From: Desulfobacterales bacterium
GTDB lineage: Bacteria > Desulfobacterota > Desulfobacteria > Desulfobacterales > SpSt-501
DNA length: 32,783 bases
Direction: 5' to 3'
Assembly (NCBI GenBank): GCA_025454255.1
Contig: JALOOU010000029.1
Coordinates: forward strand, 1-32,783
Part shown: positions 1,925 through 5,714 of the stretch, piece by piece
How the letters are laid out: each line of letters begins with the position of its first letter
How positions within the stretch are numbered: the first letter of the stretch is position 1
The notes under the pieces: generated by a model
What the model was told of the DNA's origin: nothing
Databases searched by the model: none
What the model saw: the letters and a program-made list of their open reading frames with translations, nothing else
Made by a program: the position numbers and the translations under genes

Positions 1925-2778
1925 CGGCATTTGCTTTAACGCTGCTTCTGGGCGCCGGCTTTGTCCATGCCGGCTGGAACTTGCTCGCCAAAAAGGCGGG
2001 CGGCGGCCCGGTGTTCGTGTGGCTGTTCGCCTCCATGTCGACCCTGATTTATGCGCCCATGGCGGCCGGCGCCCTCCTGTGGCTCAAACCCCATATCGGA
2101 CTGCTCGAAGTGGGGGTCATGCTGGTGACGGCCCTCATTCACATCGCCTATTTTCTCCTGCTCCAACAGGGCTACAAGGTCGGCGACTTGTCGCTGGTCT
2201 ACCCCCTGGCGCGCGGCACCGGCCCTGTGCTCTCGATGGTGCTGGCGATCCTGCTGTTTCACGAAAGGCCCTCGGTCGTCGCGATCGGAGGCGGCCTGAT
2301 GGTGGCGGCAGGGGTGTTCGCCCTGGCCGGCGGGGCCGCCGGGCCGCGGGGAGGCCGCCGGCCGGCGGTTGTCTACGGGCTGCTCACCGGCTCGGTCATC
2401 GCCATGTACACCCTCTGGGACAAGCTGGCCGTGAGCACCTATTTGATCCCTCCGCTGATTTTAGTGTGGGCGATCGACGCCGGCCGCGTCCTCCTGCTCG
2501 CCCCCATCGCCTTAAAAAAATGGGGCGAGGTGCAGCGCCAATGGCGCGAGAAACGGATGGCGGTCGTCGCCGTGGGGGCCCTCTGCCCCTTGTCCTACAT
2601 TCTCGTGCTGACCGCGCTGGTGACGACCCCGGTCAGCTACATCGCCCCGGCGCGGGAGGTCAGCATCCTGATCGGCACCGTAATGGGCGCCCGCTGGCTG
2701 CTTGAAGGGGAGGCCTGCCGCCGCGTTCCCGCCGCCCTGGCGATCGTCGCCGGCATCATCGCCCTGGCCGTCGGCTGA
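1921..2778 (+). CDS. EamA/DMT-superfamily transporter
   Basis: This 285-residue inner-membrane protein is almost entirely hydrophobic. It has the two repeated EamA halves of about five membrane segments each: the first starts at FALTLLLGAGFVHAGWNLLAK, and the second starts around VVYGLLTGSVIAMYTLWDK. Drug/metabolite transporters of this kind export or import small metabolites such as amino acids. The substrate here is unknown. The ATG overlaps the stop of the NodT remnant by four bases, so the start is well fixed. The 3' end (2512-2778) is covered on the other strand by the tail of the YdjM-type reading frame. Confidence 0.85.
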   Translation: MTAFALTLLLGAGFVHAGWNLLAKKAGGGPVFVWLFASMSTLIYAPMAAGALLWLKPHIGLLEVGVMLVTALIHIAYFLLLQQGYKVGDLSLVYPLARGTGPVLSMVLAILLFHERPSVVAIGGGLMVAAGVFALAGGAAGPRGGRRPAVVYGLLTGSVIAMYTLWDKLAVSTYLIPPLILVWAIDAGRVLLLAPIALKKWGEVQRQWREKRMAVVAVGALCPLSYILVLTALVTTPVSYIAPAREVSILIGTVMGARWLLEGEACRRVPAALAIVAGIIALAVG

Positions 2779-3825
2779 GCCGCGGCCCTGTGGTTGCTCG
2801 CTGCAGGAGGCGTCCGCTGGGGACGCGCCCGCCGAATCGGTCCAAATGCGCTGCCAGACCCACGCCAGCACCGCCGTATTGCGCGGTTCCCTGACACGAA
2901 GCGGCGTCGCCGGCACCGCATGCGGGCTGCCCGCCATCGCCACCCGAAAGCGGAAGGTGTAGTCCGGCTCCATGCCCATGCGCAGGTCGGTCATGACGAT
3001 CCCCTCCCCGACCCGCTGCACCGAGTAGAACCCGTGGGTGAACCACTGCAGCCGCTTGACCGGCCAGTGCTCCTCCACGCCCGCCAACAGGTGCCGGTCG
3101 ACGGGATAGCGCATCATCTTGAGCTCCCGGCTCCCGTCCACGAGCGAATAATAGCCTTCGTAGTAGCCGTCATCGCCCATGGCTAAAACGCGCCACAGGA
3201 GGGTGTTGAACGCCGTCGGGGTCGTCAGAAGCGCGCTGTAGCCGATGTTCTGCTGCCGCAGAGAGTCGCGCGCCGCCTGCTCCACATGGAGCTTGGCCCC
3301 GATGCTCCAGAGTATATAGAGCGTGCTGAGGGTAAGGCAGATCGAATTGACGAGGTGACCCTTGCCCGTGCGCCGAGTCATGACGAGCGCCGCCAAGACG
3401 CCTGCCAGAAGCGGCAGCGAGTAGACCGGGTCGATGATGAAGAGGCTCGACCACATCACCGGCGGCGTGGGGAGCGGCCAGAAGATCTGAGTGCCGTAGA
3501 CGGTCAGGCAGTCCAGGATCACGTGGGTGACGAAGGCGAGGAACACCAGCCAGAGCCAGCGGGCGCGGTGGACGGCGGTCCGGGGGTGGATCTTAAGGAT
3601 CAGGTATACGAGCACCGGGGTGAACGCCGCCAGTATGAAGAGCGAGTGGCTGGGCCCGCGGTGGTAGGTGACGTTGCGAACGGCATCCCCCAGCGGCACC
3701 AGCACGTCCAAATCGGGCAGCAGGCCGCCGATGCCGCCCCACAGCATGGCGCGGCGCCCGATCTGGCGACCCAAAACCGCTTCGCCGACGGCGGCGCCCA
3801 AACCGATCTGCGTCACAGTGTCCAT
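2512..3825 (-). CDS. YdjM-type membrane-bound metal-dependent hydrolase
   Basis: This belongs to the family once described as LexA-binding, inner-membrane-bound putative hydrolases (DUF457). Visible motifs are LLPDLDVL near residue 36, the TYHRGPSHSLF metal-ligand motif near residue 54, and HVILDCLTVYGTQ, followed by several membrane segments. I start it at the ATG at 3825 (MDTVTQIGLG), because the 14 codons before it are not family-like. Relatives end near residue 350. Here the frame passes the expected end without a stop and runs about 90 further codons antisense to the convergent EamA gene, producing a low-complexity Gly/Asp/Gln tail. I take the first ~350 residues as real and the tail as probable stop-codon loss or a frameshift. 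The substrate is not known for the family. Confidence 0.8.
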   Translation of the reverse strand: MDTVTQIGLGAAVGEAVLGRQIGRRAMLWGGIGGLLPDLDVLVPLGDAVRNVTYHRGPSHSLFILAAFTPVLVYLILKIHPRTAVHRARWLWLVFLAFVTHVILDCLTVYGTQIFWPLPTPPVMWSSLFIIDPVYSLPLLAGVLAALVMTRRTGKGHLVNSICLTLSTLYILWSIGAKLHVEQAARDSLRQQNIGYSALLTTPTAFNTLLWRVLAMGDDGYYEGYYSLVDGSRELKMMRYPVDRHLLAGVEEHWPVKRLQWFTHGFYSVQRVGEGIVMTDLRMGMEPDYTFRFRVAMAGSPHAVPATPLRVREPRNTAVLAWVWQRIWTDSAGASPADASCSEQPQGRGSADGQGDDAGDDRQGGGNAAAGLPFKQPAGAHYGADQDADLPRRGDVADRGRHQRGQHENVGQGAEGPHGDDRHPFLAPLALHLAPFF

Positions 3826-3907: not shown

Positions 3908-5128
3908 TCACTCCTCGGCCAAACCTCCGTTGGGAGGCTCGGGGATGCGGGCCGCGGCGGGTGGAGCCTCTGCGGCCGCAGGCGGCAGCAGGTGGCGGGG
4001 AAGAAAGGCGATGCCGGCGATCAGGGTGGGGATCACGGCGCTCCCGATCACCGCCGTGACCAGAAACGAATATTGCTCCTGGGTCACGATTCCGTTCGAA
4101 TACCCGTAGAGGGCCGAGATCGTGCCGAAGGTCAGGCCGGTGGACATCAGCAGGGTGTAGTACCAGCGCTCGTTGCGCTCGCGGCGGAAGATCGCGATGA
4201 TCGGGAAAAGTCCGAAGATCTTCGATGCCACCTTGCCCGCCAGAAGCGCGATCAGGACCAGCGGGGCCGTCATCAGCGCCGGCACAGAGACCAGCGTCCC
4301 GGCCCGCAGGAAATAGAAGGGGGTCAGAAAACCGACGGTGAGCGTTCGGATCCGGCGCACCCAGAAGGCATCCCGGGCCGCGCTGCCGGCCAGGATCATG
4401 CCGGCGATGTAGGCCGGGAGCACCGCCTCGCTGCCGGACCACAGGGCCAAGGCGCCCAGTCCCATCAGCACCAGCAGGATCCACTTGGTGCGGATGGCCG
4501 CCGTGCGGTGGGCGTAAAGCCGGGTCAGCAGTTTTGTCATAAAAGGCAGCAGACCCAAAATGGCAACCGTCACGACCAGGAAGATGACCGTTTTGTAGGT
4601 GAACGGTGCGAAGATGAGCCCCAGCGCCAGGACGGTGCCCAGGTCGTTGATGAAGCAGGCCCCCAGGATCCCCTTGCCGAAATCGGTGCGGTTGAAGCCG
4701 GTCTCCAGCATCACCGCGTAGACCACGGCCATCGAGGTCGTGGAGAGGGCGATCCCGCCGAGCCAGCTGGCGCGCGGGTCCCAGCCGAGGATGTAATAGG
4801 CCAGCGCCGTGCAGCCCAAAAAAGGCGCCAGGAAGCCGACCACCCCCACCACGCTCACCTCCTTCCATTTCCTGCGGATCACCTCGGGCTCGAGCTCGGC
4901 GCCCGCAAGGAACGTGAGCAATACCGCCCCGGAGGAGGCCAAAAACCTCAGCCACTCATCGTTTGCGCCCAACGCCGCGAACATCCCCAGGTGCGTGGCC
5001 ACCGCGGCGGCGGCGACGCCGACGCAGATCTCGATCAGGGCGATGGAGATGCGCAGGTGGTAGGCGATGACCGAGGAGAGGACGGCAAGCGACAACCAGA
5101 CGGCGGCGGTGGCGAAGAACTGCTCCAT
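3908..5128 (-). CDS. CPA2-type cation:proton antiporter, fluoride-riboswitch controlled
   Basis: This 406-residue polytopic membrane protein belongs to the Na+(K+)/H+ exchanger (KefB/NhaS-like) family. Typical segments are LTFLAGAELEPEVIRRKWKE, the STTSMAVVYAVMLETG stretch, and ACFINDLGTVLALGL, whose Asn-Asp pair matches the ion-binding core of such antiporters. The short Pro/Ala-rich tail lacks a TrkA-N domain, unlike full KefB. The start at 5128 is chosen because AAAGGAG lies about nine bases upstream and because the upstream in-frame codons cover the riboswitch and terminator. The leader carries a fluoride aptamer and an intrinsic terminator, so the protein is probably made when fluoride is high, and may help restore pH or ion balance under fluoride load. 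The ion transported is inferred from the family only. Confidence 0.9.
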   Translation of the reverse strand: MEQFFATAAVWLSLAVLSSVIAYHLRISIALIEICVGVAAAAVATHLGMFAALGANDEWLRFLASSGAVLLTFLAGAELEPEVIRRKWKEVSVVGVVGFLAPFLGCTALAYYILGWDPRASWLGGIALSTTSMAVVYAVMLETGFNRTDFGKGILGACFINDLGTVLALGLIFAPFTYKTVIFLVVTVAILGLLPFMTKLLTRLYAHRTAAIRTKWILLVLMGLGALALWSGSEAVLPAYIAGMILAGSAARDAFWVRRIRTLTVGFLTPFYFLRAGTLVSVPALMTAPLVLIALLAGKVASKIFGLFPIIAIFRRERNERWYYTLLMSTGLTFGTISALYGYSNGIVTQEQYSFLVTAVIGSAVIPTLIAGIAFLPRHLLPPAAAEAPPAAARIPEPPNGGLAEE

Positions 5129-5175
5129 GTCGGCAAACTCCTTTCGAAAACAAATTGGGGTCGGCGCACCGAAAT

Positions 5176-5198
5176 GAAAAACCCGCCTGGCGGCGGGC
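5176..5198 (-). terminator. Intrinsic terminator in the fluoride-riboswitch leader
   Basis: On the minus strand, CCCGCC (5197-5192) pairs with GGCGGG (5187-5182) across a four-base loop and is followed directly by TTTTT (5181-5177). It lies between the fluoride aptamer and the ribosome binding site of the antiporter gene, the usual place for a transcription-terminating expression platform. A further GC hairpin (GCCGCG/CGCGGC, 5242-5237 with 5227-5222) sits between the aptamer and this terminator. The expected mode is termination without fluoride and read-through with fluoride. That mode is inferred from known riboswitches of the class. Confidence 0.85.
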
Positions 5199-5239
5199 AT
5201 CGGCGCTGGGCAGACAGCTCCGCCGCGGGATGGGGGCGC

Positions 5240-5291
5240 GGCAGGAGTCATCAGCCCAATGGGGGGCGGTTGTAAGGGGAACTCCATCCCC
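5240..5291 (-). promoter_or_regulatory. Fluoride riboswitch aptamer (crcB-type RNA)
   Basis: On the minus strand, the motif GGGGATGGAGTTCCCC (5291-5276) forms a GGGG/CCCC stem around an ATGGAGTT loop. A second stem GCCC/GGGC (5267-5264 with 5257-5254) follows. It leads into the invariant TGATG (5253-5249) and ACTCC (5248-5244). ACTCC pairs with GGAGT of the first loop (5285-5281), giving the pseudoknot that defines fluoride riboswitches. The order of elements matches the known fluoride aptamers. It sits 28 bases after the DUF1232 stop and 112 bases before the antiporter start, with a terminator between. I found no convincing promoter, so transcription may start inside the DUF1232 gene or read through from it. 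Confidence 0.93.
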
Positions 5292-5318
5292 TCGCTGGTC
5301 CGCCGAGCATCCGGCAGA

Positions 5319-5714
5319 TCAGTCAGCGGAGGAGAAAATAGCACCCAAATAGTAAAAAGTGAAACCAAAAATGATCAGCCAGATCAGGATAATGACGCCG
5401 CCCGCGACCCAATTTTGGGGTTTGCCGTCCGTTTGCGCCAAAGCGGCTTTCTCGCGGCACTCCTGCAGGAGCTCGGCCGGGATCAGCTTGATCACGAGCG
5501 CGATCCCAAGGGGGATGAGTATCAGGTCGTCCAGATAGCCGAGCACCGGAATGGGATCGGGAATGAGGTCGATGGGGCTGAAGGCGTAGGCCACGATCAC
5601 GACCGCCAGTGCCCGCGCATGCCAGGGGACCCGGCGATCCCGGGAGGCGAGATAAAGCGCATGCACTTCCAGCTTTAACCTTCGCGCCTTTGCCTTCCAT
5701 TTTTCGAATGCCAT
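5319..5714 (-). CDS. DUF1232 (YkvA-like) membrane protein
   Basis: This 131-residue protein carries the DUF1232 signature FSPIDLIPDPIPVLGYLDDL at about residues 45-64, inside a hydrophobic region, and one further membrane segment near the C-terminus (VAGGVIILIWLIIFGFTF). The family's function is not established. The ATG at 5714 lies 20 bases after the stop of the MFS gene, so it is most likely the last gene of the ChrB_N / MFS / DUF1232 operon. Its stop codon is 28 bases before the fluoride aptamer, so a promoter for the riboswitch transcript may lie inside this gene. Confidence 0.85.
   Translation of the reverse strand: MAFEKWKAKARRLKLEVHALYLASRDRRVPWHARALAVVIVAYAFSPIDLIPDPIPVLGYLDDLILIPLGIALVIKLIPAELLQECREKAALAQTDGKPQNWVAGGVIILIWLIIFGFTFYYLGAIFSSAD

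Follow-up and report, generated by a model that had tools for sequence, protein, structure and literature searches.

A fluoride riboswitch upstream of a CPA2-like cation/proton antiporter in a Desulfobacterales bacterium, and the conservation of the pair

We analyzed the window, a 32,783-nucleotide stretch of DNA from a Desulfobacterales bacterium, and identified on its minus strand a fluoride riboswitch aptamer ahead of a gene for a monovalent cation/proton antiporter. We favor, with a probability of roughly 0.7, the reading that the aptamer is part of a fluoride riboswitch that switches transcription ON and controls a CPA2-like antiporter, which most likely restores ion balance. The antiporter belongs to a conserved riboswitch-tied clade that is found under many phylum labels, mostly in tested genomes without a known fluoride exporter.

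The aptamer belongs to the fluoride riboswitch family

A cmscan search of the whole window returned a single match at the gathering threshold, to the fluoride riboswitch family RF01734, at positions 5300 to 5235 of the minus strand. The match covers the full model (positions 1 to 64 of 64) with 52.9 bits against a gathering score of 34 and an E value of 4.2 × 10−12, which rules out an aptamer by chance and bears out the call of a fluoride riboswitch in an earlier note made from the sequence alone. Judged by the covariance model, the aptamer is confirmed as a real member of the family, one that presumably binds fluoride. In the draft genome (4.11 Mb in 194 contigs, 87.3% complete), the window's own aptamer is the one RF01734 match with an E value of 0.001 or lower.

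The P1 stem-loop, GGGG-ATGGAGTT-CCCC, lies at 5291 to 5276 of the minus strand (GGGG at 5291 to 5288, ATGGAGTT at 5287 to 5280, and CCCC at 5279 to 5276), and its loop bases GGAGT (5285 to 5281) form the 5′ side of the pseudoknot. The P3 stem, GCCC/GGGC, follows at 5267 to 5254 (GCCC at 5267 to 5264 and GGGC at 5257 to 5254), then TGATG at 5253 to 5249 and ACTCC, the 3′ side of the pseudoknot, at 5248 to 5244. All of the core elements that the earlier note listed are therefore present on the minus strand and in the order claimed; the span that it gave, 5128 to 5291, begins at P1 and leaves out the first 9 nucleotides of the Rfam match.

Six leaders were used to build an aptamer model, which gave 69 matches at an E value of 0.1 or lower in 80 homologue loci, the weakest of them at 15 to 19 bits. 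P1 and P3, but not the pseudoknot, guided the alignment. Across these 69 matches, P1, the pseudoknot, and P3 together were paired in 97.5% of cells versus 88.6% in shuffles, with two-sided changes at 10 of 13 pairs versus 4.8 in shuffles, and slid versions of the pairing dropped to 45 to 67% of cells paired. P1 was paired in 99.6% of cells and P3 in 92.3%. The pseudoknot had two-sided changes at four of its five pairs, and all five pairs were kept in 67 of the 69 matches, so the pseudoknot that the earlier note described is also a feature of the homologous leaders.

The leader looks like an attenuator

In the minimum-energy fold of the ligand-free window leader, GGGC and ACTCC become part of one long hairpin together with CGCGGCGGAG; this predicted anti-aptamer hairpin spans 5258 to 5207 of the minus strand, and its pairing is retained with changes in homologous leaders. 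Within it, GCGGCGG (5226 to 5220, minus strand) has two alternative partners, the aptamer side in the anti-aptamer hairpin and CCGCCGC, the 5′ arm of the terminator, with which it can pair as an antiterminator. The intrinsic terminator, a hairpin of −14.9 kcal/mol with a U-run, is at 5198 to 5177 of the minus strand (consensus scan match at 5198 to 5181), and a ribosome binding site, AAAGGAG, is at 5144 to 5138, 9 nucleotides before the ATG at 5128. Both follow the aptamer, as had been claimed, and the terminator scan is weak evidence taken alone, with one terminator found versus 0.6 expected in shuffles.

The antiterminator test took in 57 leaders, 16 of which had all elements located; the others failed at the motif or the terminator step. 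The antiterminator pairing beat shuffles (P < 0.05) in 12 of these 16 leaders, including the window leader, and in four leaders (L008, L086, L029, and L070) the alternative pairings are kept with differing sequence on both sides. Simple folding formed the terminator both with and without the pseudoknot strands blocked, and what speaks for the ON direction of switching is thus the antiterminator pairing together with the known behavior of the family. The arrangement looks like that of an attenuator, with a switching direction that we infer. In the absence of fluoride, the anti-aptamer hairpin would draw in the 3′ portion of the aptamer, and the downstream terminator would halt transcription. 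With fluoride, the Mg-F-bound pseudoknot would hold ACTCC and free GCGGCGG, which could pair with the 5′ arm of the terminator as the antiterminator and give read-through, the ON state.

The controlled gene encodes a CPA2-like antiporter

The gene behind the leader (5128 to 3908, minus strand) starts with the ATG at 5128 and encodes a 406-amino-acid CPA2-like cation/proton antiporter. The sole domain found in it is PF00999, Na_H_Exchanger, with 102.6 bits against a cutoff of 26.2. The earlier note had named a CPA2-type antiporter as the controlled gene, and its identification of the antiporter is correct; the CPA2 model TIGR00932 matches at 96.3 bits, below its cutoff of 238.3. The protein is therefore CPA2-like, rather than CPA2 under NCBI's rule. 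By profile, its closest solved structures are NapA (4bwz; E value of 2.3 × 10−12 with a 7-member profile) and KefC (8bxg; E value of 4 × 10−6).

Residue conservation was read from 110 sequences with at least 60% identity and 18 sequences with 45 to 60% identity, with some loci twice in the set. D162, aligned with NapA D157, is invariant in both groups (110/110 and 18/18), as are K299, K303, and E234. R275 is invariant in the group of 110 and is R (12 sequences) or K (6 sequences) in the group of 18. NapA K305 presumably has its counterpart in K299 or K303; the K-x-x-G pattern makes K303 the most likely, and the printed alignment leaves the choice of Lys undecided. An Asp-Asp pair marks the electrogenic CPA2 members. 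At position 161, which corresponds to NapA D156, 101 of the 110 sequences have N and the other 9 have T, and the antiporter clade thus has kept the ion-binding Asp and not the electrogenic Asp pair. The N or T at this position makes the stoichiometry and the ion of the antiporter uncertain, and its ion specificity is one that we infer.

A DUF1232 gene (PF06803 by Pfam; 5714 to 5319, minus strand) lies just upstream of the antiporter and is possibly in the same transcription unit. By phmmer, three other members of the genus (G001, G003, and G004) have a DUF1232 homologue ahead of their antiporter, and none was found in the available sequence of the G002 antiporter locus. A YdjM-like gene downstream of the antiporter (PF04307; 3867 to 2512) was considered as a conserved member of the unit and rejected, as phmmer found no homologue among the open reading frames of the other loci, many of which are short flanked. 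Elsewhere in the window are a gene for an AbiEii-type nucleotidyltransferase (PF08843; 8531 to 9334), possibly part of a type IV toxin-antitoxin system, and a gene for a ChrB N-terminal domain protein (PF20229; 6983 to 7525, minus strand). ChrB is a chromate resistance regulator.

The riboswitch and the antiporter are linked in many genomes

Within the genus, the antiporter is present in five of seven genomes, its own included, and the two genomes without it are 80 and 85% complete. RF01734 precedes the antiporter in four of the five carriers (its own genome, L004, L005, and L006). At the fifth locus, L007 in G004, no aptamer was found at the gathering score and the antiporter comes directly after DUF1232, a pattern that would fit either loss of the riboswitch or its never having been gained. 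RF01734 also precedes the antiporter at L008, a locus from a different family within the order, and it is absent from nine distant PF00999 loci (L009 to L017; 0/9). A second antiporter copy in G003 (L018) seemingly lacks approximately 170 internal residues and has a riboswitch of 37.6 bits and a terminator.

We surveyed the best 80 of at least 561 confirmed relatives in genome contigs, which have 63 to 78% identity to the window protein. Their labels include Nitrospirota, Omnitrophota, Acidobacteria, Actinomycetota, Planctomycetota, Bacteroidota, a Methanomassiliicoccales archaeon, and others. The same leader, for which the earlier note had suggested a survey of antiporter homologues, proved to be frequent: with the six-leader model, an aptamer lies within 400 nucleotides upstream on the same strand in 52 of these best 80 homologues, two of the 52 being weak matches (L081, 18.8 bits, and L045, 15.9 bits). 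The other 28 have no aptamer within 400 nucleotides, and two of these have less than 200 nucleotides of upstream sequence. In L092 and L099, the aptamer is further upstream, ahead of a dynamin-like GTPase gene that is followed by the antiporter, and in L061 a weak aptamer match (17.8 bits) is followed by DUF6062, TauE, and enolase genes and then by the antiporter. In the phylum set described below, RF01734 was found in 55 of 59 genomes with the antiporter versus 103 of 336 without it.

Two features of individual loci are recorded here. DUF6062 (PF19538) lies between aptamer and antiporter both in L061 (2259 to 2918, the first gene) and in L066 (4144 to 4854, the second gene). In L024, a second fluoride aptamer (2281 to 2341; 39.4 bits with the six-leader model) precedes a glutamine synthetase gene (2583 to 3800) and sits behind a Usp-antiporter pair that has its own aptamer (29.5 bits).

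Known fluoride exporters and the role of the antiporter

Hydrogen fluoride would enter the cell and dissociate, upsetting cytoplasmic pH, ion balance, and the proton motive force, and an antiporter made under fluoride stress could restore all three by moving cations against protons. Such cation/proton exchange after HF entry is plausible, is already the printed view, and is the most likely physiological role. The aptamer, the pseudoknot covariation, the predicted alternative pairings, the gene family, and the conserved linkage are what the sequences themselves support. The earlier note had also offered that the antiporter may be an unrecognized part of fluoride resistance, and this suggestion has gained some comparative support from the distribution of the known exporters. 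Its observation that the window holds no dedicated fluoride exporter extends to the whole draft genome (87.3% complete), in which no PF02537 (Fluc/CrcB) was found. The one CLC of the draft genome scored 113 bits to the ClcA-type chain 1kpl versus 42 bits to the CLC-F 6d0j, and as its nearest relatives are ClcA-type chains, we ruled it out as a CLC-F.

The comparison within the phylum covered 395 genomes; we treated them as one set across searches because the total, the completeness, and the genus tallies agree. The antiporter (E value of 1 × 10−40 or lower) is present in 59, Fluc (PF02537) in 175, and RF01734 in 158. In six genomes, Fluc and the antiporter lie on the same strand within 1.6 kb of each other, with gaps of 0.56 to 0.84 kb in G284, G355, and G473 and of 1.4 to 1.5 kb in G186, G318, and G494. 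This proximity, together with the 87.3% completeness of the window's genome, would fit an accessory role, in which the antiporter gives a proton gradient or charge compensation to an exporter that is as yet unrecognized or was missed by the draft. We consider this unlikely; 18 carriers with at least 60% identity to the window protein, which are 87 to 100% complete, have neither Fluc nor a recognizable CLC-F.

These same 18 genomes bear on another possibility, that proteins of the antiporter clade export fluoride themselves (F−/H+ or F−/cation coupled, for example) and replace Fluc and CLC-F. Fluc is present in 10 of the 59 antiporter carriers versus 165 of the 336 other genomes (odds ratio, 0.21; Fisher P = 3.3 × 10−6, with phylogeny ignored). 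Grouped by identity to the window protein, in bands that were picked after the data were seen, the 60% cut included, Fluc is present in 0 of 18 carriers at 60% or more, 6 of 7 at 54 to 59%, 4 of 24 at 45 to 53%, and 0 of 10 below 45%; draft genomes may miss genes. A PF00654 search found a CLC in 6 of the 18 carriers at 60% or more. None is a recognizable CLC-F, judged by lengths of 511 to 625 amino acids and by motifs unlike the CLC-F motif; the CLC of the window's genome is the one among them that was compared with solved structures. None of the 18 genomes exceeded 200 bits to a CLC-F-like query, a line that would miss a CLC-F of the 6d0j kind (approximately 140 bits), and the PF00654 searches are free of that weakness.

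In the survey across phyla, we searched the genomes that carry 50 of the 80 loci and found Fluc in 6. Among the 44 without Fluc, 17 have any CLC and 3 have a CLC-F-like protein (L147 to L149), with L145 left unclassified. L148 alone of these three was compared with solved structures, and its best relative is 6d0j (139.6 bits versus 74 bits for ClcA). In the phylum set, the L148-like CLC class adjoins none of the riboswitches listed, whereas the more distant CLCs of G166 and G306 do; both classes were counted as CLC-F-like, which is the choice less favorable to the exporter idea. The invariant R275 and the N or T beside the ion-binding Asp, which separate the clade from NapA, also speak for export. 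However, Fluc, a CLC-F-like protein, and such an antiporter are all absent from 56 of the 158 riboswitch genomes, so that an exporter-less state is common in the set. Moreover, the group at 54 to 59% identity, unlike that above the chosen cut, has Fluc in six of seven genomes, Fluc lies close to the antiporter in G284, G355, and G473, and the residues that serve cation exchange, Asp and Lys, are retained. On balance, export by the antiporter seems unlikely. Its most specific form is quite improbable: the clade would make up a third type of fluoride exporter with an NhaA/NapA-type fold, replacing Fluc and CLC-F in many uncultured lineages, with R275 and the N/T-D motif as adaptations that couple fluoride or HF to proton flux. 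The close homologues in genomes without Fluc are a finding that pure pH control does not account for.

It is highly improbable that the leader is a chance resemblance or a decayed riboswitch without fluoride control, even though the genus member L007 has the antiporter without an aptamer and a scan for one promoter type found no sigma-70-like promoter at 5050 to 5500 (none was expected by chance either), because the E value is 4.2 × 10−12, the elements are all intact, and the pseudoknot and the expression platform covary.

Other genes behind fluoride riboswitches

We read one locus each in 20 of the 56 riboswitch genomes that have neither exporter nor antiporter. By phmmer, a dynamin-like GTPase gene is downstream of the riboswitch in 12 of these 20 loci (L165, L167 to L173, L177, L178, L182, and L183), and Pfam found PF00350 in L092, L099, L165, L169, L178, and L183. 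With one query, a dynamin-like GTPase was found in 21 of 53 riboswitch genomes versus 1 of 27 genomes without a riboswitch, the samples being nonrandom, and in at least 12 of those 22 genomes it shares its strand with one of the riboswitches listed and lies within 300 nucleotides of it. The dynamin-like GTPases and the other genes behind riboswitches suggest that, in this set, fluoride regulons lacking a known exporter are common. A dynamin-like GTPase was not found in the window's genome, and our literature search found no paper linking fluoride, riboswitch, and dynamin.

Further dynamin-like GTPases directly behind fluoride riboswitches were found by phmmer in L190 to L192, L199 to L202, L028 (2888 to 4825, minus strand), and L078 (7456 to 9300). 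Among the other loci of the 20, L164 encodes a PF00146 membrane subunit of a kind found in formate hydrogenlyase, L175 and L180 have other PF00999 antiporters, and further loci have genes without a family assignment. In L175, L179, and L180, from genomes without Fluc, a different and longer PF00999 subfamily (approximately 490 to 520 amino acids) comes after the fluoride riboswitch; L179 was placed in this subfamily by the look of its start alone.

Comparison with known systems

The pairing of riboswitch and antiporter, which the earlier note implied to be new, is already documented, and the window adds one well-formed instance. Passages of a 2024 review citing Baker 2012 (PMC11139923) name Na+/H+ antiporters, for pH homeostasis, as the class most commonly associated with fluoride riboswitches after the exporters, and Weinberg 2010 (PMC2864571) already places K+ transport genes behind the crcB motif, with a ligand expected to raise expression by blocking terminators. 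In Enterobacter cloacae (PMC5533749), enolase and UspA are under a fluoride riboswitch. Our literature search found no paper joining a fluoride exporter with a cation proton antiporter and none combining at least three of the four themes fluoride riboswitch, Na+/H+ antiporter, Fluc, and CLC-F.

The window leader resembles the fluoride riboswitch (crcB motif, RF01734) in its full aptamer, its pseudoknot, its downstream terminator, and the fluoride stress class of its gene. In the Bacillus cereus model (PMC11077080), the terminator has the pseudoknot strand as its own base, whereas in the window leader aptamer and terminator seem to be linked through a separate hairpin, the anti-aptamer, and through an antiterminator; a covarying antiterminator between aptamer and terminator would be wiring unlike that model. 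Like the riboswitch-associated Na+/H+ antiporters of Baker 2012, as cited in PMC11139923, the window antiporter is a PF00999-type protein behind a fluoride riboswitch. It shares with the CPA2 members NapA (Thermus thermophilus, 4bwz) and KefC (8bxg) the ion-binding Asp, and it has invariant Lys residues near the NapA Lys, but the window clade has N/T-D in place of D-D and an invariant Arg 275, and PF00999 is the one domain found. Fluc/CrcB and CLC-F, neither of which was found in the draft genome, are of different families, and what the antiporter would have in common with them is a place in riboswitch-controlled fluoride defense.
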